Shown here piece after piece: positions 18,550-32,971 of a stretch of DNA of 32,971 bases. Below the pieces are notes generated by a model. It did no database searches and was not told the DNA's origin. It saw only the letters and a list, made by a program, of their open reading frames with translations. The first letter of the stretch is position 1, and the number at the start of each line of letters is the position of its first letter. Position numbers and translations under genes: made by a program. The DNA is from a virus, in the IMG/VR virus record IMGVR_UViG_3300020421_000083, positions 1 to 32,971 of that record. One strand, 5' to 3'.

Positions 18550-18558
18550 GGAGGACAT

Positions 18559-19109: not shown

Positions 19110-19114
19110 GTATC

Positions 19115-19163
19115 AAAGAGTGTTGGGAAACCTGCTCAGCGGCGATCCTAGCGTGTCTTTTTC
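19115..19163 (+). terminator. GC-rich structured element, possible terminator
   Basis: In the 118-bp gap after the small-protein operon, AAAGA-GTGTTGGG (19115-19127) can pair with CCTAGCGT-G-TCTTT (19147-19160), using several G-U pairs and one bulged G. An inner CC-t-GC/GCGG hairpin sits in the loop. A run of five T ends at 19162. The segment is much richer in G and C than its surroundings. It could be an intrinsic terminator or a small structured RNA. Confidence 0.4.
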
Positions 19164-19191
19164 TTGTAAAATAAGGGGTTTTACACTAATA

Positions 19192-19220
19192 TTGACAAAT
19201 TCTAAAAATCCTGATATTAT
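19192..19220 (+). promoter_or_regulatory. Sigma70-type promoter abutting its start codon
   Basis: TTGACA (19192-19197), 17 bp, TATTAT (19215-19220), then six bases and the ATG at 19227. The expected start of transcription falls on or next to the A of the ATG, so the mRNA would be leaderless. The -35 extends to the shared 10-mer TTGACAAATT. Confidence 0.75.
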
Positions 19221-19226
19221 ATAGGT

Positions 19227-19541
19227 ATGAGTGAGATTAAACCAATAGACGAAAAATTAGATAGTAAGATAGCCAAACTCAATTCAACAAGAGTGTACAA
19301 AAAAGTTACACCTAGATATGATTTGTCTTGGTATATCAAATGGGCAAGTAGTATTATATTAATTACTGCAATGATGTTTACAGCAGTTGACATCTATCCA
19401 ATCAATATGTGGATTGCAAACATAGGTTTTATTGGCTGGTTGACTGTTGGTTTATTATGGCACGATAGATCATTGATTGTATTGAATGCTATATCACTTG
19501 CAATTTATTCAATGGGTATATTAAATTATTATTATGGCTAA
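19227..19541 (+). CDS. Multi-pass small membrane protein
   Basis: This 104-aa protein has a polar N-terminus (about 32 residues), then three hydrophobic segments (WYIKWASSIILITAMMFTAV; MWIANIGFIGWLTVGLLW; LIVLNAISLAIYSMGILNYY). From memory this resembles a small membrane family frequent in marine T4-like phages (possibly DUF6552). It opens a six-gene operon and is expressed from a promoter ending six bases before its ATG. Confidence 0.75.
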   Translation: MSEIKPIDEKLDSKIAKLNSTRVYKKVTPRYDLSWYIKWASSIILITAMMFTAVDIYPINMWIANIGFIGWLTVGLLWHDRSLIVLNAISLAIYSMGILNYYYG

Positions 19542-19797
19542 AACAATTACAATAGAAGTAAATAAAAAAACTGTATCAGAAGTTTACAATCAAGTTGCTA
19601 TGTGTAACGATCTTGGTTTTCCTAACTTTCAAAAAGGTGAACCTATCAATAAACTTATGGTAGAAATCAAAAGAAGTATTAAGAAACAAAAGAAACAAGA
19701 AAAACTAGGTTGGAAAGAGTTTTTACATTTTTGGCCACTATCAGTTGTAGTACCATTAATGTTATTATCAATATTATTAGCACCATTATTTCAATGA
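19534..19797 (+). CDS. Small protein with C-terminal membrane helix
   Basis: This 87-aa protein has a soluble N-terminal part (ITIEVNKKTVSEVYNQVAMC), a lysine-rich helix (IKRSIKKQKKQEKLGWKE) and a C-terminal membrane segment (FWPLSVVVPLMLLSILLAPL). It overlaps the preceding membrane protein gene by 8 nt, and its stop overlaps the next start. Function unknown. Confidence 0.7.
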   Translation: MAKTITIEVNKKTVSEVYNQVAMCNDLGFPNFQKGEPINKLMVEIKRSIKKQKKQEKLGWKEFLHFWPLSVVVPLMLLSILLAPLFQ

Positions 19798-20072
19798 AAA
19801 AGAAAAAGATAAAAGAAACATATAAAAGTATTAATAGAGAGTCTTTCAAAAAGACTTTATCAGGTTTTGATTTACCTGATTTGACATTAGACATCAACGG
19901 TCTACCACGAAATTCTATACCAACAAGTGATAGAATCCCAGGCGCTTGTGTAAAGAGAACTTTACCAAAAGTAAAATTGCCTGAAGGTAAAACCATCGGC
20001 ATTGCATACAACAAAGGTAATTATCAAGTTGTAGATAAGGCTGATTTTAAATCTATGGGAAGGAAAACATAA
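19794..20072 (+). CDS. Small basic hypothetical protein
   Basis: This 92-aa protein has a very basic N-terminus (MKKKKIKETYKS), then FDLPDLTLDINGLPRNSIPTSD and a C-terminal TIGIAYNKGNYQVVDKADFKSMGRK. The ATG overlaps the previous stop (ATGA). A longer in-frame start inside the previous gene gives an unconvincing extension and is rejected. Possibly nucleic-acid binding; unproven. Confidence 0.7.
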   Translation: MKKKKIKETYKSINRESFKKTLSGFDLPDLTLDINGLPRNSIPTSDRIPGACVKRTLPKVKLPEGKTIGIAYNKGNYQVVDKADFKSMGRKT

Positions 20073-20332
20073 TGTGGAATATGAAAAAATCACTACTATT
20101 TGCCGTTGCATTAGTTACAGTAATTCTTGTATCAATGAATATGGCAAGTGCAGATGAGAAGAAAGTAACACCAAAGGAATTTGCTACGGCTGTTAGTGAG
20201 TTACCAAGTAAAGTAGGTAATCATATCTCTATGGAAATAGAGAAGTCAAAGGCGTATCAAAAAAAGAGTTGGGCTGAAGCTAAAAAGAAATGGCCTTGGA
20301 ATAAAATCTTTAAGGATAGTAATGAACAGTAA
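20072..20332 (+). CDS. Small secreted protein
   Basis: This 86-aa protein has a signal peptide (MWNMKKSLLFAVALVTVILVSMNMASA, cleavage probably after ASA) and a short Lys/Trp-rich mature part (KAYQKKSWAEAKKKWPWNKIF). A second ATG 9 nt downstream is also possible. The basic, Trp-rich tail looks membrane-active or peptidoglycan-associated, but no family is recognised. Confidence 0.7.
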   Translation: MWNMKKSLLFAVALVTVILVSMNMASADEKKVTPKEFATAVSELPSKVGNHISMEIEKSKAYQKKSWAEAKKKWPWNKIFKDSNEQ

Positions 20333-20534
20333 AGATTTTGTTTATACTAGTAAAAATGATGGGACTGCTTTTATCAGGCCCATCACTGCTAGAGCTGAGA
20401 CCTTTTGGAAAGAGAATGAGTTTACTAGAAAATATGTAATTGATAATACAGAAGATTATTACATAATCAAAAGTGTAAATGGACCAGAATTGTGTAGTAA
20501 AATAAGAGATTCTGGTATGGATTTTACGTCATAA
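20322..20534 (+). CDS. Small hypothetical protein
   Basis: This 70-aa soluble protein (DFVYTSKNDGTAFIRPITARAETFW... YYIIKSVNGPELCSKIRDSG) overlaps the secreted protein gene by 11 nt. TAAGGATAG upstream gives a ribosome site. Last gene of this operon; the following gap holds the second LexA-like box. Function unknown. Confidence 0.65.
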   Translation: MNSKDFVYTSKNDGTAFIRPITARAETFWKENEFTRKYVIDNTEDYYIIKSVNGPELCSKIRDSGMDFTS

Positions 20535-20540
20535 TTATGG

Positions 20541-20558
20541 ATGTTCTCGTTTTGTTCT
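20541..20558 (+). promoter_or_regulatory. LexA-like box GTTC-N7-GTTC, copy 2
   Basis: The sequence ATGTTCTCGTTTTGTTCT holds GTTC-TCGTTTT-GTTC. It differs from the site at 17806 at a single base, begins six bases after a stop codon, and lies 37 bp before the promoter at 20595. The shared spacing to a downstream promoter suggests a working operator; no hairpin explains this copy. Confidence 0.6.
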
Positions 20559-20594
20559 TATTTAAAATGTTGATTTTATTGACTTTTTTAGGCA

Positions 20595-20623
20595 TTGACA
20601 ATACGATATTTTTATGGTATTAT
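20595..20623 (+). promoter_or_regulatory. Sigma70-type promoter with leader
   Basis: TTGACA (20595-20600), 17 bp, TATTAT (20618-20623). The expected transcript has a leader of about 25 nt containing GGAGG before the ATG at 20655. It serves the exported-protein/glutaredoxin operon. Confidence 0.75.
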
Positions 20624-20654
20624 ATAAACACTAAACTAAAAACGGAGGAATAAT

Positions 20655-20945
20655 ATGTTTCAATATACAAAAGAACTAATATTTAAAGAGTTTGATATAG
20701 AAAAAAAGAAAGATGAGAAGAAATCTACATCTAAAAAAAAGTGTTACGAGAATCGTATTCAATTCTTTAAAGACCACATAAAGAATAAAGAAGAAAATCC
20801 AAAGTGTTATGAACACCTTGATATTAAATTTGATAAACTATTAAGTGTTTATCAAACTCCAAATCCTTTAGACACAGAGTATAAATTGATTTTTGGAAAA
20901 TCTTATAACGAATATTGGACAGACTACAACAAATTATATGAATAA
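20655..20945 (+). CDS. Small lysine-rich hypothetical protein
   Basis: This 96-aa, very basic N-terminal half (DIEKKKDEKKSTSKKKCYENR) is followed by a segment with HIKNKEENPKCYEHLDIKFDKL and a Tyr-rich end. It has no signal or membrane segment. CGGAGG stands before the ATG. First gene behind the promoter and LexA-like box; function unknown. Confidence 0.7.
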   Translation: MFQYTKELIFKEFDIEKKKDEKKSTSKKKCYENRIQFFKDHIKNKEENPKCYEHLDIKFDKLLSVYQTPNPLDTEYKLIFGKSYNEYWTDYNKLYE

Positions 20946-21414
20946 AATTATTTTAAGTTTAATTGCTCTCTTGTTGTTAAATAACTGCGCAGCCAGTAAT
21001 CGTAGTCACGTTGGTGCCACTTTAGGTGCCACGACTACAACTGGCTCGTGTGTCGCTATGGGAGTAGAAAATCCTTATGCCATCGCAGCGTGTGCTGTGA
21101 CTGGTGCATTTGTTGGCGCTGATATTATGTACAAGTCAGACGCTGATGTACACAATGCAATGTTTGTTGACCATATGAACAAAAGTCCTAATGGTTCTAC
21201 ATACACTAATTGGTACAACTCAAATACAGGTAATAGTGGAATTATTAAAACTACAAGTACATATATGGTTGAAACAATCAAGTGTAAAGATTATGAATCA
21301 ACTGTAGATATAACAAACCAATGGCCTTTAATAGGTATCGGAGGTATCAATAGAAAAGTAAACTTTGGTACAGCGTGTCAAATGCCAGATGGTAGATGGG
21401 TTGAGAAAAACTAA
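20938..21414 (+). CDS. Lipoprotein with glycine/alanine-rich segment
   Basis: This 158-aa protein has a signal peptide and lipobox ending LLLLNNC (lipidated Cys17). A Gly/Ala-rich hydrophobic stretch follows (GATLGATTTTGSCVAMG... AACAVTGAFVGADI), like glycine-zipper outer-membrane lipoproteins. The C-terminus, FGTACQMPDGRWVEK, resembles the end of the next gene's product. The ATG at 20938 fits the signal peptide better than an earlier in-frame ATG. Probably membrane-attached; possible role in host envelope change. Confidence 0.78.
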   Translation: MNKIILSLIALLLLNNCAASNRSHVGATLGATTTTGSCVAMGVENPYAIAACAVTGAFVGADIMYKSDADVHNAMFVDHMNKSPNGSTYTNWYNSNTGNSGIIKTTSTYMVETIKCKDYESTVDITNQWPLIGIGGINRKVNFGTACQMPDGRWVEKN

Positions 21415-21890
21415 TGCCATTTGATCCTAGAAAATATTTGGTACTAATGATGTACACAATTTTTGCTATACTCATATGCACATATGTGTTTGGTAATGAA
21501 AATGGTGATTTGTCAGAGAAGACATATCCTGTTGAGAATGTAAAAGTAATTGAGATTTTAGATAAGATAGAGAAGATTGAAAAAGACGGCGATAAAGTTT
21601 ATTATAACAAAATTACAACTGTTGAACCTAAAGACGCAGCAGATCAATATTGTTATGTTAAAGTGATTATAAAAGAAACTGATAATACAATTATCAAAGA
21701 AGAAATTTTGGAGTGTGCTGATGGAAGAAAAACAGTAGATGGTCCTTCGTATTGGCAGCTATTTGCTCAATTTTATTATAGAGATGTGGCAACTCCCGAA
21801 TACTGTAGAATGTACAGCAGACCTAATCACGCTTTTAAGTCGTTCGGAAAAGTGTGTTTACAACAGAACGGTGAATGGGAGGTAAAATGA
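21414..21890 (+). CDS. Exported/anchored protein related to its upstream neighbour
   Basis: This 158-aa protein has an N-terminal membrane segment (about 9-26, LVLMMYTIFAILICTYVFG), then a charged region and cysteines at DQYCYVKV, ILECADG, TPEYCRMY and GKVCLQQ. It ends FGKVCLQQNGEWEVK, the same FG-x-x-C-x4-G-x-W pattern as the preceding lipoprotein, so the two C-terminal domains may share ancestry. It begins in a TAATG overlap. Function unknown. Confidence 0.72.
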   Translation: MPFDPRKYLVLMMYTIFAILICTYVFGNENGDLSEKTYPVENVKVIEILDKIEKIEKDGDKVYYNKITTVEPKDAADQYCYVKVIIKETDNTIIKEEILECADGRKTVDGPSYWQLFAQFYYRDVATPEYCRMYSRPNHAFKSFGKVCLQQNGEWEVK

Positions 21891-22027
21891 TTAAGAATTT
21901 AATCATAATCTCACTAGTTTTTGTAATAGTTACGGGTATATCAGGGGCTGAATTTTTAGACTATATATCTTTAGGACTTGACAAATTGCAAGACCTAGTT
22001 TATAATATAAAAAGTGAGGTAAATTAA
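21887..22027 (+). CDS. 46-aa small exported or membrane protein
   Basis: MIKNLIIISLVFVIVTGISGA forms a signal peptide or membrane helix, followed by about 25 residues (EFLDYISLGLDKLQDLVYNIK). GGGAGG lies just upstream, and the ATG overlaps the previous stop. The second half of the gene contains a perfect promoter for the next gene, so these bases have a double job. Confidence 0.65.
   Translation: MIKNLIIISLVFVIVTGISGAEFLDYISLGLDKLQDLVYNIKSEVN
21978..22006 (+). promoter_or_regulatory. Perfect sigma70-type promoter inside a small gene
   Basis: TTGACA (21978-21983), 17 bp, TATAAT (22001-22006), with the extended TTGACAAATT. It lies wholly in the 3' part of the 46-aa gene and would give a leader of about 18 nt with GAGG before the ATG at 22031. 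Confidence 0.75.
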
Positions 22028-22030
22028 TAT

Positions 22031-22648
22031 ATGATGAAGTATGGTAAGATAGTAGGTATCATCGCAGCAGGGTTATTAGTAGCCAATTGTGCTGGTTCTT
22101 ACAAAATGAAGTCAGAGAAGGGTAAAGTCTTAAACGAAGTACCAAAATGGTATATGGCTGACTTTTCTGAAAGTAAAGCGTGTGATACACCTTTATTCGG
22201 TAAAGACAAAGATAGAATGTGTATCTTTGGTGTCGGTACTGCAGTGTCACCTGATCTAAACTTGGCGATTGAAAAAGGTATGATGATTGCTAAGGCAGAA
22301 CTTGCTGATATTGTTAAAGGTGAGATGAACAAATCATCAAAACAATTCATTACAGAATTGGGAAAACAACATAACAAAACAACTGTATCGGAAGTAGAAT
22401 CAGTTATAGTTAACTTGATTAAAGATACACCTGTTAGAGGTTATGAAATCTTTGCCAAAGATGTAACAATAACTAAAAACGGTTATTACAGAGCGTGGAT
22501 TGGTTTGAGATTACCATTAGGTGAGTACAATAAAATGTACAATTTCACAATAGCAGAAGCAGTTGATGCTTATAATGTAAAAGAAAAAGCTAAAATTGCT
22601 TATGATAACTTAATAGGTAAAGAAAATGAAAATAGTAATATACAGTAA
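22031..22648 (+). CDS. LPP20-like lipoprotein
   Basis: This 205-aa protein has a signal peptide with lipobox LLVANC (Cys20). The mature protein has VPKWYMADF, then FGVGTAVSPDLNLAIEKGMMIAKAELADIVKGE, the W-containing start and Ala-rich helix typical of LPP20-type lipoproteins, and ends with a YYRAWIGLRLPLGEY strand region. Most relatives of this fold are bacterial outer-membrane lipoproteins, so this is probably a captured host-type gene. It has its own promoter and overlaps the glutaredoxin gene. Confidence 0.7.
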   Translation: MMKYGKIVGIIAAGLLVANCAGSYKMKSEKGKVLNEVPKWYMADFSESKACDTPLFGKDKDRMCIFGVGTAVSPDLNLAIEKGMMIAKAELADIVKGEMNKSSKQFITELGKQHNKTTVSEVESVIVNLIKDTPVRGYEIFAKDVTITKNGYYRAWIGLRLPLGEYNKMYNFTIAEAVDAYNVKEKAKIAYDNLIGKENENSNIQ

Positions 22649-22892
22649 AAACAATTGTGCCTATTGTACCAAGGCGAAGCATATGTTGAAGACGCTTGGC
22701 CTTGAGTATGAGGAAAAGATGATGGAATCTTTCTCTTCAGTAGATGAGATGTTAGAAGACATTGGTAAAAAAGTAAGAACTATGCCACAAATAAAGATTG
22801 ACGGTAAGTTAGTCGGTGGATATAACCAACTTGTTGAATATTTTGTTGAACAAGGGAAAGTGAATTTTAAAGGTGAGATTATTAGTGAGTGA
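22626..22892 (+). CDS. Glutaredoxin
   Basis: This 88-aa protein has a thioredoxin fold with active site CAYC (C11, C14), the cis-proline motif TMPQI (residues 52-56) and the glutathione-binding VGGY. It probably reduces the C-terminal cysteine pair of the phage NrdA, sustaining deoxynucleotide synthesis. It starts inside the end of the lipoprotein gene. T4 carries an analogous glutaredoxin (nrdC). Length is normal. Confidence 0.92.
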   Translation: MKIVIYSKNNCAYCTKAKHMLKTLGLEYEEKMMESFSSVDEMLEDIGKKVRTMPQIKIDGKLVGGYNQLVEYFVEQGKVNFKGEIISE

Positions 22893-23367
22893 TGATAAGA
22901 TAATACACTTTCCAACAGATCGGATTGTTAATCATAGAAGTAGGGAACTTGATGAACAAAGACGTAAAATGGGTGAGAAGGTAGCCAAACAAATTAAACA
23001 ACAACAAACTAAAAAATTTGTTGAAACAGCAGTAGATGATATTAGTATGAATTTATTAAGACAGTTTGTTGATTTGGCTATGAAGACTCAATCAAAAGTA
23101 TTTATGCAAGACTTGGCACTATTAGTAGATGTAATGCGTGGTATGATATACAGAGATTTTGGATTGAAACATCCAGCACAAACACTATCAGATAAGATGG
23201 TTATTCTAAAAGATAATAAATCAGGTCAACCACAAGCTAAAATTAACTATGAACCAGTATTAAAAGCAATGACATCTAAACCAATTAGTAAAGATGTAAA
23301 AGAAGAATTAAATGATCTAAACCAAACTGGTGTATTATTTGATCCAGATAAGGATTTAGATGAGTAA
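22885..23367 (+). CDS. Hypothetical phage protein with FPTDRIV motif
   Basis: This 160-aa protein begins SDDKIIHFPTDRIVNHRSREL, then a charged helix (RRKMGEKVAKQIKQQQTKKF) and a helical core (LLRQFVDLAMKTQSKVFMQDLALLVDVMRGMIY). The tail is acidic (DPDKDLDE). I chose GTG 22885, preceded by AAAGGTGAG and overlapping the glutaredoxin stop; a GTG 12 nt earlier is also open. I remember similar sequences in marine T4-like phages without an assigned role. Confidence 0.7.
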   Translation: MSDDKIIHFPTDRIVNHRSRELDEQRRKMGEKVAKQIKQQQTKKFVETAVDDISMNLLRQFVDLAMKTQSKVFMQDLALLVDVMRGMIYRDFGLKHPAQTLSDKMVILKDNKSGQPQAKINYEPVLKAMTSKPISKDVKEELNDLNQTGVLFDPDKDLDE

Positions 23368-23445
23368 ACAGAATTCCATAGGAATCGCCTTGACAGGTTG
23401 TAAAATAGTTTTGTTAAACTCAAATATAAAAAGGAGTAATATATA

Positions 23446-23829
23446 ATGTTTAATTATATTAAAAACCTGTTCGTTAAAGACGAACTAGTTACTGTAAAAG
23501 TAACTAAAAGAACTGCTGAAACTAGAGGCAGAAAAAAACTTTCAAAGAAACAGAAAGTTTTAAACCTTTTACAAAAAGGTGAAAACGTTGCTTGGTCAAC
23601 AATTCAAAATAAATTTGATTTGGAATCACCAAGGTCAATGATTGACACTTTAAGAGCTGAAGGCTATATGGTCTACGGTAATAAAGTGGCTGGTAGAACA
23701 TACTACAGAATTGGTGCTCCTACAAGAGCAATAGTTGCTGCTGGTATTAAAGCGTTATACGGAACTAAATTCAAGTATAACAACCACAAGGTTTCTATAA
23801 AGAGATCAGAACTAGCGCCAATTAACTAG
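23446..23829 (+). CDS. Probable winged-helix DNA-binding protein
   Basis: This 127-aa basic protein contains RGRKKLSKKQKVLNLLQKGE, then WSTIQNKFDLESPRSMIDTLRAEGYMVYGN, which reads as a helix-turn-helix (recognition helix about SPRSMIDTLRAEG) followed by a wing (VYGNKVAGRTYYRIG). AAGGAG stands nine bases before the ATG. It stands alone, with non-coding gaps on both sides, the downstream one holding a stable hairpin. A plausible phage transcription regulator; target unknown. Confidence 0.65.
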   Translation: MFNYIKNLFVKDELVTVKVTKRTAETRGRKKLSKKQKVLNLLQKGENVAWSTIQNKFDLESPRSMIDTLRAEGYMVYGNKVAGRTYYRIGAPTRAIVAAGIKALYGTKFKYNNHKVSIKRSELAPIN

Positions 23830-23840
23830 TAATCCAAGTG

Positions 23841-23865
23841 TGTGGCGTGATGCAAACACGCCACA
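23841..23865 (+). other. Stable GC-rich hairpin without T-run
   Basis: TGTGGCGTG (23841-23849) pairs perfectly with CACGCCACA (23857-23865) around a 7-base loop. It lies in the 64-bp gap after the winged-helix gene. No T-tract follows in either direction, so a simple intrinsic terminator is unlikely; an mRNA-stabilising hairpin, a processing site or a protein operator are alternatives. Confidence 0.65.
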
Positions 23866-23893
23866 TACATAATACAAACAACAGAGGAATTAT

Positions 23894-24121
23894 ATGTCAT
23901 TAAGAGATGCATTATTACAAGCAATAACGAAACACGCTGAAGGTCATATAGAAAAACATAGAATCAATGTAGAAAACTTGTTACAAAACAATGTAGGAGT
24001 TGCAGAACATCCTGACCACATTGAAACTATTGAAAAAGAATTAGGTATCATAGCTGAATATGACGATCAGATAGAAATGTTAAACAAGTATTTTGTCAAA
24101 AAAGACCCATTTAAAAAGTGA
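23894..24121 (+). CDS. Small conserved phage protein
   Basis: This 75-aa protein is helical (SLRDALLQAITKHAEGHIEKHRINVENLLQ) with a middle VGVAEHPDHIETIEKELGII motif. From memory, very similar small proteins occur in many T4-like cyanophages, with no known role. AGAGGA precedes the ATG; the stop overlaps the GTG start of the PP-loop gene. Confidence 0.75.
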   Translation: MSLRDALLQAITKHAEGHIEKHRINVENLLQNNVGVAEHPDHIETIEKELGIIAEYDDQIEMLNKYFVKKDPFKK

Positions 24122-24936
24122 TAGATCAATTATTAACACAGGAAATACAAGGACAAACAGAAGATAGTGAGGTCGCTGTATTATTATCTGGAGGTGTTGA
24201 TAGTTTATCTACGGCATTCGCTGCTAATAGATTAGGTAAAAAGATAACTGCTTATACGTTTCATTTAGAAGGTCAACCAACTTATGATTCACAAAAAGCT
24301 GTAGAAGTTGCAGAGAAATTTAATTGGGATTATAAAGTTGTAGTTGTACCTACTGATAAAATAGAAGATGATTTTTTTAGACTTGCTAAAGAAATATTAT
24401 GTAAAAAGAAAACACATTTTGAATGTTGCTTTCCGTTCTTATATGTGTATCCAGAAATAAAAGAGAAGGCAGTAATAAGTGGTTGGGCAGCAGATGGTTA
24501 CTATGGTATAAGTAAGAAAGCTATTTTACATTATACTAAAGGTAAAACAAAAGAAAAATTTGATGAGTTTAGAGATAATTATTTTGACTATTATAATCAA
24601 GCAGGTTATCTATGGCACGAAAGAATAGCTAGAAATAATGATAAACAATTGATTACACCTTATTTGTCATTTAGTGTTAAAGATTATTTCTACAATAAGG
24701 ATTGGTATGAATTAAATGAGCCATTTCAAAAGCATAATGTTGTAAACTCATTTGAAGAATTTAAGAAGTTTAAATTTAAGAAACATATTAACTTACAGTT
24801 AGGCGCTGGTATTGATAAGTTATTTGAAACACTACTAGATAATAGAAAAGTTAATTTTAAGAATAGAAAAAGAGTTATGGACATTTGTAGAGATTGGTCT
24901 ACACAATTTGAAAGTTTAGGAGTATTACCAGTATGA
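24118..24936 (+). CDS. PP-loop ATP pyrophosphatase (asparagine-synthase-like)
   Basis: This 272-aa protein has the PP-loop SGGVDS at residues 24-29, followed by ITAYTFHLEGQPTYDSQKAVEVAEKF, GWAADGYYG (second nucleotide/substrate loop) and a C-terminal LQLGAGIDKLFETLLDNRK. It activates a carbonyl or carboxylate substrate by adenylation. It resembles the synthetase domain of AsnB without the glutaminase domain; QueC-type enzymes also have this loop, but I do not see the usual zinc cysteines. It starts with GTG within the previous stop. Possible role in nucleotide or base modification, unproven. Confidence 0.75.
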   Translation: MIDQLLTQEIQGQTEDSEVAVLLSGGVDSLSTAFAANRLGKKITAYTFHLEGQPTYDSQKAVEVAEKFNWDYKVVVVPTDKIEDDFFRLAKEILCKKKTHFECCFPFLYVYPEIKEKAVISGWAADGYYGISKKAILHYTKGKTKEKFDEFRDNYFDYYNQAGYLWHERIARNNDKQLITPYLSFSVKDYFYNKDWYELNEPFQKHNVVNSFEEFKKFKFKKHINLQLGAGIDKLFETLLDNRKVNFKNRKRVMDICRDWSTQFESLGVLPV

Positions 24937-25088
24937 AAAGAAAAAAGAAAAGAGAAAAAATCTACGAAAGAAATCCTAACACAGGGGTTATTCGTTGGAG
25001 GTATGTTGATGAGTCACCAGACAAATTTGGATGGCCTAACTATGGAAGAATATTAAATGAAAAAAATAATAGACCCAAAAAATCCTAA
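24933..25088 (+). CDS. 51-aa basic protein
   Basis: The product begins MKRKKKREKIYERNPNTG, then VIRWRYVDESPDKFGWPNYG and a Lys/Arg end. The ATG overlaps the PP-loop stop, which supports translation. Its 3' part overlaps the next gene by 32 nt in another frame. Both this protein and the next contain a KNPNT/RNPNTG motif, perhaps by chance. Function unknown. Confidence 0.6.
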   Translation: MKRKKKREKIYERNPNTGVIRWRYVDESPDKFGWPNYGRILNEKNNRPKKS

Positions 25089-25185
25089 TACAGTAGGAAT
25101 GAGTTTACTAAATCTAGGCAATCACGTTTTGATTGTAGGTTTTGTTTGTGCTTTGGTGTTTGTAGTAATGGCGAGTTATTCATAA
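25057..25185 (+). CDS. 42-aa single-pass membrane protein
   Basis: The N-terminus is polar (MKKIIDPKNPNTVGM), followed by a strong membrane helix (HVLIVGFVCALVFVVMASYS). GGAAG is upstream. The stop overlaps the next start (TAATG). One of several membrane microproteins in this window; function unknown. Confidence 0.6.
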   Translation: MKKIIDPKNPNTVGMSLLNLGNHVLIVGFVCALVFVVMASYS

Positions 25186-25361
25186 TGTTAGATTTAGAAC
25201 ACGGATTGCTTTTAGGTATTATAGGATGTACAGTAACTATTACTGGTTTCTTTATTGCATTTTTAGTTGTCAATAAAATAAAAAGAAAAGAAAGAGAAGA
25301 TGAGCTTAGAAAAAGAGAAAATGAGAAGAACCCATATTACTTTGGGGACGATACAGTCTAA
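25185..25361 (+). CDS. 58-aa single-pass membrane protein
   Basis: An N-terminal membrane helix (LLLGIIGCTVTITGFFIAFLVV) is followed by a strongly charged helix (NKIKRKEREDELRKREN) and a NPYYFGDD tail. The ATG in the TAATG overlap is preferred to a longer upstream start. Layout suggests a cytoplasmic charged tail at the inner membrane. Function unknown. Confidence 0.65.
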   Translation: MLDLEHGLLLGIIGCTVTITGFFIAFLVVNKIKRKEREDELRKRENEKNPYYFGDDTV

Positions 25362-25368
25362 AAAGAAA

Positions 25369-25515
25369 ATGACTCGTAAAGTTGATACCTATGAGTATCA
25401 GTCTTTGGCAGATTGTATAAGAAGTGACCAAGTACCTGCAAGTGAAATTGCAGAGATATTTACAGATAAAACATTTTACAAATGGTATAAAAAGAAATAC
25501 TTAAATGATAAATGA
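25369..25515 (+). CDS. Small conserved phage protein
   Basis: This 48-aa protein (TRKVDTYEYQSLADCIRSDQ..., FTDKTFYKWYKKKY) resembles, from memory, small proteins of T4-like cyanophages. I placed the start at the first ATG after the previous gene; in-frame ATGs at 25300 and 25321 would overlap that gene and add a Lys-rich extension. It overlaps the next gene by 11 nt. Function unknown. Confidence 0.6.
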   Translation: MTRKVDTYEYQSLADCIRSDQVPASEIAEIFTDKTFYKWYKKKYLNDK

Positions 25516-25687
25516 ATTACTAAAAGACATTAGAGAGTTAAGAAATGAAATGGTACAGAAAAACTGGCCAGCACAAAGATTAAGTAATATTATTTTAAAA
25601 TATGAAATGAAATTACAAGAAAAGAAAAATGAATTTACAACAGAAGAAATAGTTGAAGCAACAAATAAAATACTAAACGACAAATGA
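25505..25687 (+). CDS. 60-aa helical protein
   Basis: The product is entirely helical and charged (INELLKDIRELRNEMVQKNWPAQRLSN, YEMKLQEKKNEFTTEEIVE). It overlaps the previous gene, and its stop overlaps the RNase H start (ATGA). Possibly a small binding partner; no family recognised. Confidence 0.6.
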   Translation: MINELLKDIRELRNEMVQKNWPAQRLSNIILKYEMKLQEKKNEFTTEEIVEATNKILNDK

Positions 25688-26532
25688 TACTAGTAGACCT
25701 AAATCAAGTTTTAATTTCAAACCTTATGGCTCAAACAAGAGGTAAAGCTGAAGAAATGCCTAACAAAGATATGATTAGACATATGGTGATTAATTCTATT
25801 AGAGGTTACAAGTTAAAGTTTGGAGAACAATACGGAGACATAATACTATGTGCAGATGCAAGTAACACCTGGAGGCGAAGCATATTTCCAAATTACAAAT
25901 ATGCTAGAAAGAAAAACAGAGAAGACTCTGCAACAAATTGGTTATCTATATTTGAAGTTATCAACGATATAAGAGTTGAGATACAAGAGAACTTTCCGTA
26001 TATGGTATTACATATAGATACAGCTGAAGCAGATGATATTATAGGCACATTAGTAAAAGAACTTGCACCTAAAGAGAAGAATATTCTAATTATATCTGGT
26101 GATAAAGACTTCATACAGTTACAGAAGTATGCAAACGTAAAACAATATGCACCTATACAGAAGAAATTTATAGAAGATGCAAATCCAAAGAGATTTTTAC
26201 ACGAACAGATTATCAAAGGTGATAGATCAGATGGTGTACCAAACATATTAAGTAATGATGATGTGTTTGTGGTAGGCGAGAAACAAAGACCTATCAATAA
26301 AAAGAGATTAGAGGAGTGGGCAAATGTAGATAATATACCATTGGGGTCAGAAACCAAGAAGTTTTATCAAAGAAATAAGACATTAATTGACTTGGAACAA
26401 ATACCTGAACCTCTAGTAAATACTATTATAAATAGATATACGAGTTATAAAGTAAACAATAGGTCCAAACTATTGCCATACTTTATGAAACATAAACTTA
26501 AAGCGTTAATGACTAACATTAATGATTTTTAA
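25684..26532 (+). CDS. rnh: T4 RNase H-type 5'-3' exonuclease (FEN-1 family)
   Basis: This 282-aa enzyme removes RNA primers and short flaps during lagging-strand synthesis, complementing the primase upstream. Metal-binding acidic residues follow the FEN-1/T4 RNase H pattern: D5 (ILVDLNQ), D58 (CADASNTWRR), E115/D117/D118 (AEADDIIG), D140/D142 (ISGDKDFIQL) and D180/D183 (KGDRSDGVPN). YKYARKK supplies the substrate-binding basic segment. Length is close to the T4 protein (about 305). Overlaps the previous gene. Confidence 0.92.
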   Translation: MILVDLNQVLISNLMAQTRGKAEEMPNKDMIRHMVINSIRGYKLKFGEQYGDIILCADASNTWRRSIFPNYKYARKKNREDSATNWLSIFEVINDIRVEIQENFPYMVLHIDTAEADDIIGTLVKELAPKEKNILIISGDKDFIQLQKYANVKQYAPIQKKFIEDANPKRFLHEQIIKGDRSDGVPNILSNDDVFVVGEKQRPINKKRLEEWANVDNIPLGSETKKFYQRNKTLIDLEQIPEPLVNTIINRYTSYKVNNRSKLLPYFMKHKLKALMTNINDF

Positions 26533-26555
26533 TATTGCAATATTTGGAGTGAATT

Positions 26556-27083
26556 ATGGCAGAAGAAAAACAACTTACCGAAAATAGACATCCTAGTCTT
26601 ATGAGTAAAAAGGCGATGGAAGCTGCTAGCAGAACATCTACTAACTCAAGGCCTTTAGTACACGAATTATTTACAAAAATTAATAATGCTAAAGACAAGG
26701 TTAAGAAGATTGCTATTTTGAGAGAAAACGATAGTCAATCTTTGAGACAGTTATGTAAGGCAGCATTTGATCCTAGGATTAAGTTTGACTTACCTGCAGG
26801 TGACCCACCTTATATGGAAAATGAGGCGCCAGCTGGAACAGAACATACATCTTTATTCAACGAAGCAAGAAGATTATATGTTTATATTGTCGGTGGTAAC
26901 AATCAAATTAACAGAATTAGAAAAGAAACATTGTTTATTCAATTATTAGAGGGTCTACATAAAGACGATGCTAAGGTTCTGTTGAACATCAAAAACAAAA
27001 GTCTAAACAAAGCTTACAAAGGATTTACCGAATCGGTAGTCAAAGAGGCGTTTGATTGGACTGATGAATTTGTGAAAAGATAG
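26556..27083 (+). CDS. DUF6433-like conserved phage protein
   Basis: This 175-aa protein has LVHELFTKINNAKDKVKKIAILREN, then LRQLCKAAFDPRIKFDLPAGDPPY and RRLYVYIVGG, FIQLLEGLHKDDAKVL and a final YKGFTESVVKEAFDW. I recognise this order as the DUF6433 type, conserved in T4-like marine phages and often near rnh or late-transcription genes. Role not known. GGAGTG precedes the ATG. Followed by overlapping hairpins that probably end the transcript. Confidence 0.75.
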   Translation: MAEEKQLTENRHPSLMSKKAMEAASRTSTNSRPLVHELFTKINNAKDKVKKIAILRENDSQSLRQLCKAAFDPRIKFDLPAGDPPYMENEAPAGTEHTSLFNEARRLYVYIVGGNNQINRIRKETLFIQLLEGLHKDDAKVLLNIKNKSLNKAYKGFTESVVKEAFDWTDEFVKR

Positions 27084-27084
27084 A

Positions 27085-27153
27085 TTTTTAGGGGGTTTTC
27101 TTATAAAATCCCCTTACGCCCTCCCTAAAAAGTCAATAAAATCAATGACTTTT
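27085..27153 (+). terminator. Overlapping hairpins after the DUF6433-like gene
   Basis: Three pairings are possible: an outer TTTTTAGGG (27085-27093) with CCCTAAAAA (27123-27131); an inner GGGGGTTTT (27091-27099) with AAAATCCCC (27105-27113, one G-T); and AAAAGTCA (27128-27135) with TGACTTTT (27146-27153). The outer and last stems share bases 27128-27131. A run of six T follows at 27161-27166. Likely terminator region, possibly with alternative folds. Confidence 0.65.
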
Positions 27154-27168
27154 AGACCAATTTTTTAT

Positions 27169-27197
27169 TTGACATTGACCTATAATCCTTATATACT
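27169..27197 (+). promoter_or_regulatory. Sigma70-type promoter
   Basis: TTGACA (27169-27174), 17 bp, TATACT (27192-27197). The leader would be about 20 nt with AGGAGG (27211-27216) before the ATG at 27224. It stands directly after the hairpin cluster, marking a new transcription unit. Confidence 0.75.
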
Positions 27198-27223
27198 AAA
27201 TATTATAACGAGGAGGATATATT

Positions 27224-27547
27224 ATGAAGAAGTTGATTATATTATTAGCCATATTGTGGGCAGGTTTAAACGCCTTTGCCAATTCAGTTAAGGCTGATGA
27301 ATACAATAAGGCAGTAGTTGCTAATGTAATAACCAATACTATACAAGGCAACAACGTAGATATTAGTAAGTTAATGGAGCAAGAACTACAAAAACTTGCA
27401 CATCAATTTACAATTGAGTCATTAGTTATTTTACAGAAGTACCTTCCAACAATATTAGAAGGTGTTGCTGCTGAATTAAGGATGAAAGCTGACAAAGAGT
27501 TGAAGTGTGAACTCTTAAAAGACAGCAAAATCAAAGACGATTGTTAA
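27224..27547 (+). CDS. Small secreted helical protein
   Basis: This 107-aa protein has a signal peptide (LIILLAILWAGLNAFANSVKA) and a mostly helical mature part (ISKLMEQELQKLAHQFTIESLVILQKYLPTILEGVAAELRMKADKE) ending with two cysteines (KCELL, DDC), perhaps a disulfide. Strong ribosome site and own promoter. Probably periplasmic in the infected host; function unknown. Confidence 0.75.
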   Translation: MKKLIILLAILWAGLNAFANSVKADEYNKAVVANVITNTIQGNNVDISKLMEQELQKLAHQFTIESLVILQKYLPTILEGVAAELRMKADKELKCELLKDSKIKDDC

Positions 27548-27553
27548 TTTATT

Positions 27554-27643
27554 ATGCACGAATTTGGTGACATAACATTGTGGGAGTATATTATCTACAC
27601 ATCACTCGTAATGGGTTATATGTGGTTAAAAGGTTATCTATAA
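27554..27643 (+). CDS. 29-aa membrane microprotein
   Basis: The reading frame encodes a short hydrophobic helix (LWEYIIYTSLVMGYMWLKGYL) after an acidic start. It begins six bases after the preceding stop and ends in a TAATG overlap with the SprT-like gene, which supports translation. Too short for family assignment. Confidence 0.5.
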   Translation: MHEFGDITLWEYIIYTSLVMGYMWLKGYL

Positions 27644-28059
27644 TGAAAAACAAAAAACAAAAACTATCGGTTATAAAGAAACGACTCAACACAGTATTGA
27701 GTAGTAGAGAGAAATATTATACAAATTTTAAAGACATTAAAAAGTATTTCAAACTTATTAATGACACAATCTTTGATGGTGAACTCTCACCATTTAATCA
27801 AATAGAAATCAAACAGATAAGAGATAGAAAAAAGTATTGTTATGGATTAGTTGAAGTATTAGAGTGGAAAAGAAAAGGGACAAGGGTGTATAGACTACAA
27901 ATGCAACCAGTCTATAAAAGTAAAAAAGATTTTGTGGACACATTAGGACACGAAATGGTACATCTGTATCAAATGGCTAACAAAGGTGATAGTGGTAATC
28001 ATAACAAATTATTTTACAGCTTTGAACCAAAGTTAAAATCAATCGGACTACGACTTTAA
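27643..28059 (+). CDS. SprT-like zinc metalloprotease
   Basis: This 138-aa protein has the HExxH zinc motif in TLGHEMVHLYQ (H103, E104, H107) and a third probable ligand in SGNHNKLF (H120), with KYCYGLVEV upstream, as in SprT domains. Relatives such as Spartan cut DNA-bound proteins; phage versions are common but untested. No C-terminal zinc ribbon is seen. The ATG in the TAATG overlap is preferred over a longer upstream start. Confidence 0.82.
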   Translation: MKNKKQKLSVIKKRLNTVLSSREKYYTNFKDIKKYFKLINDTIFDGELSPFNQIEIKQIRDRKKYCYGLVEVLEWKRKGTRVYRLQMQPVYKSKKDFVDTLGHEMVHLYQMANKGDSGNHNKLFYSFEPKLKSIGLRL

Positions 28060-28080
28060 ATAAAATAGAAAGATTATATT

Positions 28081-28362
28081 ATGAAGAAGGTGAGAGTAAA
28101 AAAGTTTAAGGACGCATATCTTAAAAAACCAATAGAAGAATCATTAGAAAAGTTAGAACAGTTTTTAGAAAAACCTAAAGGCGAGTTAGTTTACTATTCT
28201 GGTAATTTACAAGAAGATATTTTAAGTAACTACAATAAAAAACAATCAACAAAGTTATTTAAGAGAATGAGTAAGTACAGAGAGAATGAACAATTGATAT
28301 TCTTTCAAAAGAAAATAGATACAACACACGGTTATTATGATTACATTGTGAGGAAAAATTGA
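28081..28362 (+). CDS. Hypothetical protein
   Basis: This 93-aa soluble, basic protein has SLEKLEQFLEKPKGELVYYSG, KKQSTKLFKRMSKYRENEQL and HGYYDYIVRKN. No signal or membrane segment. The stop overlaps the TTG start of the next gene. From its size and position it may be a small DNA- or protein-binding factor; no family is recognised. Confidence 0.65.
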   Translation: MKKVRVKKFKDAYLKKPIEESLEKLEQFLEKPKGELVYYSGNLQEDILSNYNKKQSTKLFKRMSKYRENEQLIFFQKKIDTTHGYYDYIVRKN

Positions 28363-28634
28363 GATTATTAAAAAAACATACAGATATATTAAAAGGATTA
28401 GTTAAAGGTAAAGGTATTTACAAAACTAAACTAATACCAAAAGATAAATCAATCAAAGAAATGGAAACTGTAGTTGAGATGTATCTTAAAGGTATAATTA
28501 CCTTTGAGAATATTACAGAGTTAGAGTTTGTTGGACCAACAAAAGAACCACAATACAAAGCTTTAAAAATACAAACTAAATTTGATACTAAACAATTAAA
28601 ATCATTTATCAAAAAAGGTGTATATGAATCATAA
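28359..28634 (+). CDS. Hypothetical protein with TTG start
   Basis: This 91-aa basic protein has KHTDILKGLVKGKGIYKTK, then KEMETVVEMYLKGIITFENI and a C-terminal KIQTKFDTKQLKSFIKKG. It starts with TTG inside the preceding stop codon; GAGGAAAAAT gives a ribosome site. No family recognised. Confidence 0.6.
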   Translation: MRLLKKHTDILKGLVKGKGIYKTKLIPKDKSIKEMETVVEMYLKGIITFENITELEFVGPTKEPQYKALKIQTKFDTKQLKSFIKKGVYES

Positions 28635-29253
28635 GATTTGGGAAATAAAAAATATACTTAATGATAATGAAAAAGAATACATAGAAAAATATATTTTGTC
28701 AAATGACTTTCCTTGGTACTTTCAACCAGTATCTACAACAGATAAGTTTTTATTTTTTAGTCATATGCTATTACCTAGAGCAGATGATCCTTTAGTAAAA
28801 TCATTAGAACAATCAGAGGAGTTTTCTTTTTTTGAAAAGATACTATTAAGAGCATGTGATGCTGTTAATCTAAAAGTAAAAACAATGATGAGAGCTTGTC
28901 TAAATTTAAATGTAAATTGTTTTGATTATAAACACGGCGACCCACATATTGATTTTAGAATGCCACATAAATTAGGTATTATATATTTAAATGATAGTTT
29001 AGGTGATACACATATATTTAAACAAACTTATAATGATATTGATTTTAAAAACTCTACAATGACAATAGATGAACATATTAAAAATCCATTAGATTTATTT
29101 AAGACAATTAAACCAGAAAAATATAAAGTATTAATATTTGATGGCAAACATTACCACGCTACAAGTTATCCAGCTAAAAATGATAGACGGGTAATTGCAG
29201 TGTTTAACTTTCAAACGGAGGATGATTATGGTGAAACAAGCGATAAAAAATAA
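28624..29253 (+). CDS. 2-oxoglutarate/Fe(II) oxygenase
   Basis: This 209-aa protein has the double-stranded beta-helix iron site H108-x-D110 (HGDPHIDF) and H178 (HYHATSYP), with Arg near 188-189 (NDRRVIAVFNF) for 2-oxoglutarate. The LGIIYLND strand lies between. Members hydroxylate proteins, nucleic acids or metabolites; the substrate is not indicated. ATG 28624 is preferred to GTG 28618. It overlaps both neighbours and lies near a halogenase and a second such oxygenase. Confidence 0.8.
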   Translation: MNHKIWEIKNILNDNEKEYIEKYILSNDFPWYFQPVSTTDKFLFFSHMLLPRADDPLVKSLEQSEEFSFFEKILLRACDAVNLKVKTMMRACLNLNVNCFDYKHGDPHIDFRMPHKLGIIYLNDSLGDTHIFKQTYNDIDFKNSTMTIDEHIKNPLDLFKTIKPEKYKVLIFDGKHYHATSYPAKNDRRVIAVFNFQTEDDYGETSDKK

Positions 29254-29953
29254 CGTAGTAAAAAAAGTATTAACAGGTATAGTGGTGGTATTCTTTATGT
29301 TTATCATAGGAACATTTTTTCCTAATCCATATACAAAACACTTGATAAAGAAAGATATAGAAAGTTATTATACACATTGGGCAAATGCATTAGGTTTGCA
29401 AGAACCATCTTTTGAATATACAAACGATATACAATTTGTAGCTGCTGTTCGTAAATGTGTTGATTGGGTAAACTTTGAAACACCTAGATTTGAAAGAGTG
29501 CCAATAGAAATGATTGTTGCACAAGCGGCATTAGAGTCAGGTTGGGGTACAAGTAGATTTGCTTTAGAAGCAAACAACCTATTTGGTATAAGAACATACG
29601 ATAAAAAAGTACCACATTTATTGATAGAGGGTAGAACTAAATGGAAAGGTTGGGGTGTAAGAAAGTTTGATACAAAATGTCAATCCGTAAAGTTTTTTAT
29701 AGAACTATTAAACAATCATCCAGCATACGAAGAATTTAGAAATACAAGAACAAAGATGTTGGTTACAGGACAAACATTAGACGCCAAGATATTAATTAAA
29801 ACATTAAAGGCATATTCTACTACAAAAGATTATGCAGAGAGAGTAAATTGGATAGTAGATGCAATCAGAAAACAAGAAGAAAAATCAAGTAAGATAGACA
29901 TAAATACTAAAGTGGATTCAAAAGTCACACCAAAAGATAAACCAAAGGAATAG
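29228..29953 (+). CDS. Membrane-anchored glucosaminidase (endolysin-like)
   Basis: This 241-aa protein has an N-terminal anchor (about residues 13-31) that may be a signal-arrest-release sequence. The Bax/FlgJ-type glucosaminidase domain follows, with MIVAQAALESGWGTSRFA (catalytic E103), ANNLFGIR and KFDTKCQSVKFFIELLN. It would cut peptidoglycan glycan strands from the periplasmic side. GGAGG six bases before this ATG decides the start. The tail is Lys-rich. A likely lysis enzyme, though a cell-wall-remodelling role is possible. Confidence 0.85.
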   Translation: MVKQAIKNNVVKKVLTGIVVVFFMFIIGTFFPNPYTKHLIKKDIESYYTHWANALGLQEPSFEYTNDIQFVAAVRKCVDWVNFETPRFERVPIEMIVAQAALESGWGTSRFALEANNLFGIRTYDKKVPHLLIEGRTKWKGWGVRKFDTKCQSVKFFIELLNNHPAYEEFRNTRTKMLVTGQTLDAKILIKTLKAYSTTKDYAERVNWIVDAIRKQEEKSSKIDINTKVDSKVTPKDKPKE

Positions 29954-30907
29954 ATGTTTTTAACATTATTAACTTTTTTATCAGCTATTGCTATTTCTTT
30001 GATAGCTGCTGGTTATTCTATACTAGGACTGGCAACATTGTTTGCTGGGGCTGCAGTACCTATTATTGCTATGGGTTCTGCACTAGAAGTAGGTAAGTTA
30101 GTGGCGGCATCTTGGTTATATCATAACTGGCGCTCAGATATACCTAGAGCATTAAAAGCATATCTATTTTCAGCAATCATAATATTAATATTCATAACAT
30201 CAATAGGTATTTTTGGTTTCTTATCAAAGGCACACCTAGATCAAGTGAAACCTACAGCAGGTAATACAGAACAAATAGCATTAATAGATAAGAAGATTAA
30301 ACAAGAAGAAGCTATTATTGAAAGAGCAGAAAGAACTCTTAATCAATTAGATAAAGCACTTGACGTTTATATTGACAAGGAATATGTTAGTAGGGGATTA
30401 AAAGAGCGTAAGAAACAAAAAGAAGAACGAGAGCTGTTGAATAAATCAATAGACGAAGCAATGGCCAAAATAGCAGATTTGAACAATTCCAAATCGTCAA
30501 TAACCATAGAACAATTAAAATTAGAAGCGGATGTGGGTCCATTGAAATATGTTGCTGAGTTGATTTATGGTGACAATGCACAAGATCATTTTGATTCTGC
30601 TGTTCGTATTATTATATTAATACTTATATTTGTATTTGACCCATTGGCTGTACTTCTATTGATTGCTGCCAATATATCATTAAGACAATGGCGTATGGGT
30701 AGAGAAGAAGTAAAATCAAAGAAAAAAGATAACTTGAATACAAGAATAAAAAACTTGGTAAAAAAGAATGATAAGTATAAAAAGAAACAAGCTGTGATAT
30801 TAAAAGCATTATTTGGTAGTAATGCATCACCAAAAGATTTAGAAAAAATGAACCCTGACGAGATAAAAATTAAAATGAATCAAATAATGGATATGAATAA
30901 GGATTGA
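29954..30907 (+). CDS. Multi-pass membrane protein with periplasmic coiled coil
   Basis: This 317-aa protein has N-terminal hydrophobic segments (LLTFLSAIAISLIAAGYSIL, LFAGAAVPIIAMGSALEVG) and YLFSAIIILIFITSIGIFGFL, a coiled coil about 110-185 (EEAIIERAERTLNQLDKAL), another membrane helix (IIILILIFVFDPLAVLLLIA) and a charged tail. It resembles, from memory, an uncharacterised membrane protein widespread in marine T4-like phages. It follows the glucosaminidase directly, so a lysis or envelope role is plausible. Confidence 0.78.
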   Translation: MFLTLLTFLSAIAISLIAAGYSILGLATLFAGAAVPIIAMGSALEVGKLVAASWLYHNWRSDIPRALKAYLFSAIIILIFITSIGIFGFLSKAHLDQVKPTAGNTEQIALIDKKIKQEEAIIERAERTLNQLDKALDVYIDKEYVSRGLKERKKQKEERELLNKSIDEAMAKIADLNNSKSSITIEQLKLEADVGPLKYVAELIYGDNAQDHFDSAVRIIILILIFVFDPLAVLLLIAANISLRQWRMGREEVKSKKKDNLNTRIKNLVKKNDKYKKKQAVILKALFGSNASPKDLEKMNPDEIKIKMNQIMDMNKD

Positions 30908-30931
30908 CAAATTGATTAGATTTGTTATAAT
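30904..30931 (+). promoter_or_regulatory. Sigma70-type promoter abutting the halogenase ATG
   Basis: TTGACA (30904-30909), 16 bp, TATAAT (30926-30931), five bases, then ATG at 30937. The -35 overlaps the previous stop codon. The predicted mRNA is leaderless, and no ribosome site is visible between the -10 and the ATG. It also has the TTGACAAATT 10-mer. Confidence 0.8.
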
Positions 30932-30936
30932 ATAGT

Positions 30937-32484
30937 ATGAAAAGTATAAAATCATTTTTAGTTGTTGGTGGTGGTAGTGCTGGATGGATGACAGCTGCCA
31001 CACTTAAACACGAATTTCCCGACAAAGAAGTAACACTTATAGAATCACCTAATATAGCCACAGTAGGTGTGGGTGAAAGTACAGTTGGTGGTATTAAAGC
31101 TTGGACACATTATCTAGGAATAGATGATAAAGACTTTATGAAACATACCAATGGTAGTTACAAGTTAAGTATAAAATTTACAGATTTTTATAGAAAAGGT
31201 GATGGTGGTTTTCATTATCCATTTGGTCAACCATTTGTAGCAGAAAACAAAGCGTTATTGAATGATTGGTATTATAAAAAATATTTTTATCCTGATACAC
31301 CTAGATCAGATTATGCAGATAGTCACTATCCACAAATGGCTATGGTCAATTCAGGTAAACTATATTATCCAGACAATGAATTTGATAAATTTCCTTTTGA
31401 TTTTGATAAACACACTGCATATCATTTTGATGCTACAATGTTTGCCATTTGGTTAAGAGATAACTATTGTATTCCTAGAGGTGTAAAACATATCAAAGAA
31501 GATGTAAAATCCATTGAACAAGATGAAAACGGAATAGTATCGTTAAACAATACACACAAAGCAGATATGTACATTGATTGTACAGGTTTTAAATCGTTAT
31601 TATTGAGTCAAACATTAGGAACAGAGTTTGAATCATATGCTGATATGTTACCAAACAACTCTGCTTGGGCAACAAGAAAACCATATATTGATAAAGAAAA
31701 AGAATTTGTACCATACACAAATTGTACAGCCATAGAGAACGGCTGGGTATGGAACATACCACAATGGGAAAGAATAGGAACAGGTTATGTGTATTCAGAT
31801 AAGTTTGTTGATGACGATACTGCATTAAAACAATTACAAAATCATTTAGGTACAGATGAATTAGAATTTAAAAATATAAAGATGAGAGTTGGTATACACA
31901 AAAGATTATGGGTTAAGAATGTTGCAGCTATTGGATTGGCTGCTGGATTTATTGAACCATTAGAGAGTAATGGATTATATTCTGTACACGAATTTTTGTT
32001 TAGATTATTAAGAAATTTAAAAAGAGATATAGTTACACAGTGGGATAGAGATAACTATACTTTCCAATGTAAAAGATTGTTTAGAAACTTTGCTGAATTT
32101 GTGGCCATGCACTATGCATTATCTAATAGAGATGATACAGAATATTGGAGAGCAAATAGAGATAAAGAATGGGAACCTAATATGATAGATTTAAAAGCAA
32201 TGTTCCACGTAGGTTTCTTTACATATGCTTGTCAAAGAGATTATGATTACCATTATGAAACAGCTGGTGGTCTACAAGCAATTGCTGCTGGTATGAATTG
32301 GGGTCCAGGTGATTTCACTTCAGCAAAGTGGTTAGATTTTTACAATAATAAAAATATTGAAAACTATAAAAAAGAGTGGGACCCTTTCATCAAAGCATTA
32401 GACCAAAGAAAACAAAAATGGCTAGATTACTTAAAAGATAAGGATAGTTATATTGATTTTCATAGAAAATACATACATAATTAA
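30937..32484 (+). CDS. Tryptophan-halogenase-like flavoprotein
   Basis: This 515-aa protein is a flavin-dependent halogenase: FAD-binding GGGSAGW (11-17), GVGEST (44-49), the catalytic lysine K80 in KLSIKF, the halogenase signature GWVWNIP (269-275), and IEPLESNGLYS with E340 matching the catalytic glutamate. It would chlorinate or brominate an indole or other electron-rich substrate with FADH2 and halide. Length is normal. The flavin reductase partner is not in the window. Halogenase genes of this kind are known in marine phages, but their substrate is unknown. Confidence 0.9.
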   Translation: MKSIKSFLVVGGGSAGWMTAATLKHEFPDKEVTLIESPNIATVGVGESTVGGIKAWTHYLGIDDKDFMKHTNGSYKLSIKFTDFYRKGDGGFHYPFGQPFVAENKALLNDWYYKKYFYPDTPRSDYADSHYPQMAMVNSGKLYYPDNEFDKFPFDFDKHTAYHFDATMFAIWLRDNYCIPRGVKHIKEDVKSIEQDENGIVSLNNTHKADMYIDCTGFKSLLLSQTLGTEFESYADMLPNNSAWATRKPYIDKEKEFVPYTNCTAIENGWVWNIPQWERIGTGYVYSDKFVDDDTALKQLQNHLGTDELEFKNIKMRVGIHKRLWVKNVAAIGLAAGFIEPLESNGLYSVHEFLFRLLRNLKRDIVTQWDRDNYTFQCKRLFRNFAEFVAMHYALSNRDDTEYWRANRDKEWEPNMIDLKAMFHVGFFTYACQRDYDYHYETAGGLQAIAAGMNWGPGDFTSAKWLDFYNNKNIENYKKEWDPFIKALDQRKQKWLDYLKDKDSYIDFHRKYIHN

Positions 32485-32486
32485 CC

Positions 32487-32515
32487 TTGACAAAGGCCTC
32501 AAAAAGTGATATATT
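32487..32515 (+). promoter_or_regulatory. Sigma70-type promoter abutting the last gene
   Basis: TTGACA (32487-32492), 17 bp, TATATT (32510-32515), six bases, then ATG at 32522. Again the predicted transcript starts at or beside the ATG and has no room for a ribosome site. Confidence 0.75.
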
Positions 32516-32521
32516 AAACAT

Positions 32522-32971
32522 ATGAATTTAGAATATTGGTTTCCAACTATCATTTCCTATTCAGATTGGCATGGCAAATGTCAACCACTTATTGACCATT
32601 GTTACGATTTACAAAAAACAATTGAACGTGGTGGCGATAATTGGATAAGTACAGTTTACAATACACATAGCACACACAATATTATAGATGATGAAAAATT
32701 TAAAGAGATAAACGATTGGGCATTGGAACAAGCAAATTTATATTCCGAAAAGATAGGTTCTAAAGATAAACTAAAATATCAAAATGGTTGGTTTAACATT
32801 TACAAAAAGAAAGATTTCCAAGAGTATCATACTCATCCAGGTTCAACACTATCAGGTATTCTAGTGTTGAAAGCAAATCCTAAAACAGATGCTAGAACTA
32901 TATTTGAAAGTGATGGCTTGGAAAATGTTGATGATTTAAGATCAGAAGTTACACACAAGCTTGTACACTAT
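32522..32971 (+). CDS. 2OG-Fe(II) oxygenase, 3' end outside the window
   Basis: The first 150 residues are visible. The block NGWFNIYKKKDFQEYHTHPGSTLSGILVLKANP matches the core of the putative 2OG-Fe(II) oxygenase family PF13759, with the HTHPGS metal-binding region; the distal histidine and arginine lie beyond the end. This family is frequent in marine phages. It follows the halogenase with its own near-leaderless promoter, hinting at independent regulation. Confidence 0.8.
   Translation, partial: MNLEYWFPTIISYSDWHGKCQPLIDHCYDLQKTIERGGDNWISTVYNTHSTHNIIDDEKFKEINDWALEQANLYSEKIGSKDKLKYQNGWFNIYKKKDFQEYHTHPGSTLSGILVLKANPKTDARTIFESDGLENVDDLRSEVTHKLVHY

Follow-up and report, generated by a model that had tools for sequence, protein, structure and literature searches.

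Host-type promoters at two distances from the start codon in T4-like marine phages: a predicted near-leaderless gene class

The window, i.e., the whole stretch of DNA considered here, is a virus record of 32,971 bases with a G+C content of 31%. It encodes a gp61-like primase, NrdA, NrdB, a RuvC-like resolvase and T4 RNase H, and its ribonucleotide reductase shows 85% identity with that of Pelagibacter phage Mosig EXVC030M and 77% with that of HTVC008M. Judging from this identity and set of genes, the window is a fragment of a T4-like pelagimyophage, with Mosig EXVC030M as the nearest named isolate, as an earlier, sequence-only reading had proposed in calling the phage T4-like; the gene similarity to Pelagibacter phages points to SAR11 (Pelagibacter) as the probable host. 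Comparison of the window with Rfam returned no match. A tmRNA gene of the alpha/permuted type was encountered in contigs close to the window (L185, 9085–9364; L188, 8898–9184; L191, 4599–4879), and a tmRNA gene is also annotated in Mosig.

Four + strand genes of the window are preceded by a promoter situated next to the start codon; the distance, d, is given below as the count of bases that separate the end of the -10 element from the A of ATG. The DNA primase gene (4072–5073; T4 gp61-like, phrog_451 at 1.1e-89 and phrog_47 at 6e-88) follows TTGACA-N17-TATAAT at 4032–4060 with d=11, in agreement with the leader of about 5 nt claimed for it earlier. The other three genes, predicted to be leaderless, encode a small hydrophobic DUF6552 protein (19227–19541; PF20189, 1e-16), a tryptophan halogenase-like protein (30937–32484; PF04820, 5e-103) and a 2OG-Fe(II) oxygenase-like protein (32522–32971, continuing past the window end; PF13759, 3.8e-5, a match below the curated cut-off of the family). 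Their promoters are TTGACA-N17-TATTAT at 19192–19220 (d=6), TTGACA-N16-TATAAT at 30904–30931 (d=5), the -35 of which shares bases with the TGA that ends the preceding gene, and TTGACA-N17-TATATT at 32487–32515 (d=6), each with TG before the -10. Three further + strand promoters leave room for a leader: 20595–20623 (d=31, TG before the -10, Shine-Dalgarno GGAGGA) for the gene at 20655–20945, 21978–22006 (d=24, with only a weak Shine-Dalgarno, GAGG) for 22031–22648 and 27169–27197 (d=26, Shine-Dalgarno GAGGAGG) for 27224–27547. Direct reading thus reproduced all seven promoters of the sequence-only reading, including the three with the -10 ending 5–6 bases before ATG and the three leadered ones with ribosome sites, and the top + strand sites of an independent scan of 18000–32971 were exactly the six named above for this region (11–12 of 12 matches). 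A perfect TTGACA-N16-TATAAT is also present on the - strand at 4078–4051, where its -10 is the palindromic one that also serves the primase promoter; it was set aside as probably a chance palindrome, since the relatives read do not retain the opposite -10.

Transcription canonically starts at the seventh base after the -10, and therefore at d=6 it is expected to begin on the A of ATG; at d=5 this A is the sixth base, where a purine start is acceptable. The promoters at 19192, 30904 and 32487 hence fall within the -10/ATG spacing of leaderless (TA-led) genes (about 5–7 bp), and the primase promoter at 4032 (d=11) falls outside it. The elements are of the host sigma-70 (T4 “early”) type, TTGACA/TATAAT spaced by 16–18 bp; examined by eye, all seven carry a TTGACA -35 and resemble neither T4 middle promoters (MotA box at -30) nor late ones (TATAAATA without a -35). 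For the DUF6552, halogenase and oxygenase genes, a start codon further upstream is precluded by an in-frame stop, located at most 18 bases upstream and with no ATG, GTG or TTG in between. In the halogenase gene, this stop is a TAA within the -10 itself, and a later start would delete the FAD-binding GGGSAGW motif. The N-terminus MS.YI of the primase is conserved from ATG 4072.

The spacing was then catalogued in about 2 Mb of related DNA, comprising loci with relatives of the halogenase, DUF6552, primase, oxygenase and HTVC008M polymerase genes as well as the Mosig and HTVC008M genomes, with the rule TTGAC-N16-18-(5 of 6 TATAAT) and a downstream ORF. The promoter–ATG spacing in the resulting 245 sites (48 gene families) is bimodal: sites at d=5–13 almost always lack a Shine-Dalgarno and those at d≥18 often have one. 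Specifically, 139 sites lie at d≤13 (3 with a Shine-Dalgarno), 105 at d≥18 (61 with) and a single one at d=14–17. Since sites within one family are not independent, one should rely on the counts by family, which give a Shine-Dalgarno in 0/17 short vs. 16/30 long families (Fisher p=1e-4). The gap at d=14–17 is less marked when families are counted instead of sites, many sites coming from the primase and polymerase families; when starts were restricted to forced ones and ATG, GTG and TTG were allowed, 180 sites remained, with none at d=14–17 and a family-median mode at d=6. The absence of a Shine-Dalgarno expected of leaderless (TA-led) genes is hence observed, to be read with the fact that a Shine-Dalgarno precedes 29–35% of genes in the phage sets, so many phage genes lack one anyway. 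The coexistence of two promoter-to-start classes, as suggested earlier, is upheld by the bimodal d and the near-empty 14–17 zone, and the notion of a single “leaderless” class has to be split: the sites at d of about 6 are predicted to be truly leaderless, and those at d=10–13, with a predicted leader of 3–6 nt, do not qualify as strictly leaderless.

Comparison of individual genes revealed to what extent this placement is conserved. In the primase, a TTGAC[AT]-N17-TATAxT-like promoter is found at d=10–13 in 50 of 50 distinct relative upstreams; the letters of the spacer and leader vary, with the base at -3 being mostly G. Before the DNA polymerase gene (gp43) of HTVC008M-type phages, d is either 10–13 or 5–6, never between (e.g., L009, 47020–47060, equal to 97020–97060 of HTVC008M, NC_020484); another group has TATAATtatataATG-type junctions with d=6, and one phage has d=5 with TTTACA. 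No near-ATG promoter precedes gp43 in L211, L216 and Mosig. In the more distant T4-like contigs L252, L255 and L261, the polymerase ATG is preceded at six bases by TGATATACT or TGATATAAT without TTGACA, which amounts to the same placement with an extended -10. By eye, gp61 and gp43 of cyanophages (Syn19, P-SSM7, DSL-LC03, S-RSM4; Bellamy, S-SM2, S-BM3) display no consensus short-d promoter, and these genes begin where the preceding gene ends or close to that point; some of their annotated starts look too short, e.g., that of Syn19 gp61. In the halogenase, d=5–6 is kept in six relatives of 85–100% identity, and at 48% identity the promoter is absent and the gene closely follows the preceding one. 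The oxygenase retains d=6 in relatives of 80–99% identity and a weaker -10 at d of about 7 in a 67% relative. Spacers may diverge while the spacing stays, as in the halogenase of L016 and the oxygenase of L190. The DUF6552 promoter is kept only in L025 (97% identity), the other relatives read differing in upstream context. Overall, conservation of the promoter–ATG distance in relatives, on which the sequence-only reading had made its proposal depend, holds for the primase (50 relatives) and for the polymerase of HTVC008M-type phages; it receives partial support from the halogenase and oxygenase, with few relatives carrying the promoter, and for DUF6552 it extends to the 97% relative only.

Two peculiar sites were noted in the reference genomes. 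At 100690 of HTVC008M, the ATG from which gp123 is annotated shares bases with the -10 of the gene's promoter (TATAATG), and the true start may be the ATG 10 nt downstream of this -10. On the - strand of Mosig EXVC030M at 108414, a short ORF starts within a few bases after a strong promoter and enters an inverted repeat and a T run (AAAGAGAATTAATTACTCTCTTTTT); this element may yield an RNA of very small size or act as an attenuator.

These features are in all likelihood accounted for by host sigma-70 promoters making mRNAs that would be leaderless, or have 3–6 nt leaders, and be translated without a Shine-Dalgarno. In the scheme that we infer for host sigma-70 use, the exact transcript start, leaderless translation and the selective reason for the gap, the strong promoters would be read by RNA polymerase with the host housekeeping sigma-70, starting at the A of ATG when d=5–7 and 3–6 nt before it when d is about 8–13. 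Such mRNAs would offer no room for a Shine-Dalgarno, and the ribosome would recognize an AUG located at or near the 5' end. Elsewhere in these phages, genes would be read from this same promoter type with at least about 12 nt of leader, in which a Shine-Dalgarno is often present. Spacings of d=14–17 would be selected against, the leader exceeding what leaderless initiation accepts and yet having no space for a Shine-Dalgarno plus spacer. In a review, a 5' UTR appears among the features that inhibit the binding of ribosomes during leaderless initiation (PMC9031893), in line with leaders of 7–10 nt being unfavourable. No motA or asiA homologue has been reported in pelagimyophages (PMC7029224).

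The host may be accustomed to initiation of this kind. Across three SAR11 genomes (1.2 Mb of DNA), only 8% of genes have a Shine-Dalgarno-like word before them, vs. 29–35% in the phage sets, which suggests that SAR11 is perhaps used to initiating without a Shine-Dalgarno. TATAAT-like words are in about two-fold excess at d=5–6 in SAR11 DNA (loci L392–L451), a figure in which orthologues are counted twice and next to which one decoy word also rises a little; it hints, suggestively only, that the host itself has leaderless genes. The exact consensus with N5–7 before ATG was absent from five SAR11 genomes, this criterion being too strict to be informative, and a search of SAR11 DNA for the host 16S 3' end gave no match.

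Several other explanations can be considered. In AT-rich DNA such as this window, -10 words by themselves occur often and at many distances, and TATAAT-like words could come to lie near ATGs by chance. Demanding a paired -35 at 16–18 bp leaves just 0.02 short-d promoters expected, whereas four are observed at d=5–13 among the 51 listed genes of the window: 2000 dinucleotide shuffles of the same 51 upstreams yielded a mean of 0.0235 and a maximum of 1, an excess over shuffled sequence as expected of leaderless (TA-led) genes. Decoy (reversed, altered) motifs gave far fewer, scattered sites without such peaks in an earlier 1.96 Mb catalogue. Together with the conservation of the primase promoter in relatives, the shuffles refute a chance origin, to which virtually no probability is assigned. 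Genome compaction, leaving no space for a leader without any selection for leaderless initiation, is also unlikely, albeit not to that degree. It agrees with the promoters of the primase, halogenase, oxygenase and polymerase genes, which overlap the upstream stop or begin a few bases from it, but around half of the short-d families reside in roomy gaps (23–94 nt from the upstream stop to the -35; 82 nt at 19192), and compaction predicts neither the empty d=14–17 zone nor the d=6 peak. As the sole cause it was rejected, since the short-d and long-d classes do not differ in how far the -35 lies from the upstream stop (p=0.16).

It is similarly doubtful, and slightly more so, that the promoters are real but translation proceeds mainly from long mRNAs reading in from upstream, the short transcripts being minor. 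The tight packing of genes on one strand and the lack of a Shine-Dalgarno before most phage genes speak for such read-in. At the same time, the primase promoter and its spacing are kept over wide divergence and the polymerase promoter recurs with changed spacing, both implying use, and the promoter at 19192 sits in a non-coding gap of 117 nt. A more elaborate possibility, regarded as improbable, is that the near-leaderless class forms a separate translation channel, by which replication and metabolic genes of the phage would be preferentially translated at a particular stage, e.g., by 70S ribosomes altered by phage factors, with Shine-Dalgarno-led mRNAs following another schedule; a bS21 homologue, annotated in Mosig and HTVC008M, exemplifies such a factor. 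The earlier description of the leaderless class as “regulated” is not sustained: the DNA carries no sign of either regulation or timing, and the promoter is of the one sigma-70 type in both classes.

Published attempts to detect middle and late promoters in pelagimyophages were reported as unsuccessful (PMC7029224), and the near-leaderless arrangement favoured here provides a clear promoter class for these phages. It also implies that replication genes (the primase, and the polymerase in HTVC008M-type phages) of phages infecting very abundant ocean bacteria may be leader-free. The two spacing classes and the empty middle constitute a natural experiment on the leader length tolerated by leaderless initiation, and promoter spacing may help to correct start calls, as in HTVC008M gp123.

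The classic phage case is the cI mRNA of lambda, which is leaderless and transcribed by the host sigma-70 promoter PRM from the A of AUG. Mentioned also in PMC3160421 and PMC9031893, it resembles the genes described here in being a phage gene with a host sigma-70 promoter and a start at the A of AUG; unlike this single maintenance gene of a temperate phage, several families including replication genes are involved here. For the marine T4-like phage Melnitz, host-type early (sigma-70-like) promoters were likewise predicted upstream of genes; that work is cited here for its promoter counts, not for distances to start codons (PMC9004378). No description of a near-leaderless class in T4-like marine phages was found in the open-access literature searched. 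Leaderless genes as such are a known kind, and what is new is a conserved instance in a T4-like marine phage. In bacteria, their published mark is TANNNT about 12 bp before the start (PMC3160421, PMC12340547). Bacterial TA-led genes (Zheng et al. 2011, PMC3160421; Deinococcus-Thermus, PMC12340547) have, as here, a sigma-70-type -10 (TANNNT) about 6–7 bp before the ORF and, like the phage set, they lack a Shine-Dalgarno and occur beside leadered genes in the same genome. In contrast to them, the genes reported here belong to a T4-like marine phage and usually possess a near-consensus -35 (TTGACA/T) at 17 bp, and the second group at d=10–13 is a feature of the phages that sets them apart from the bacterial TA-led genes.
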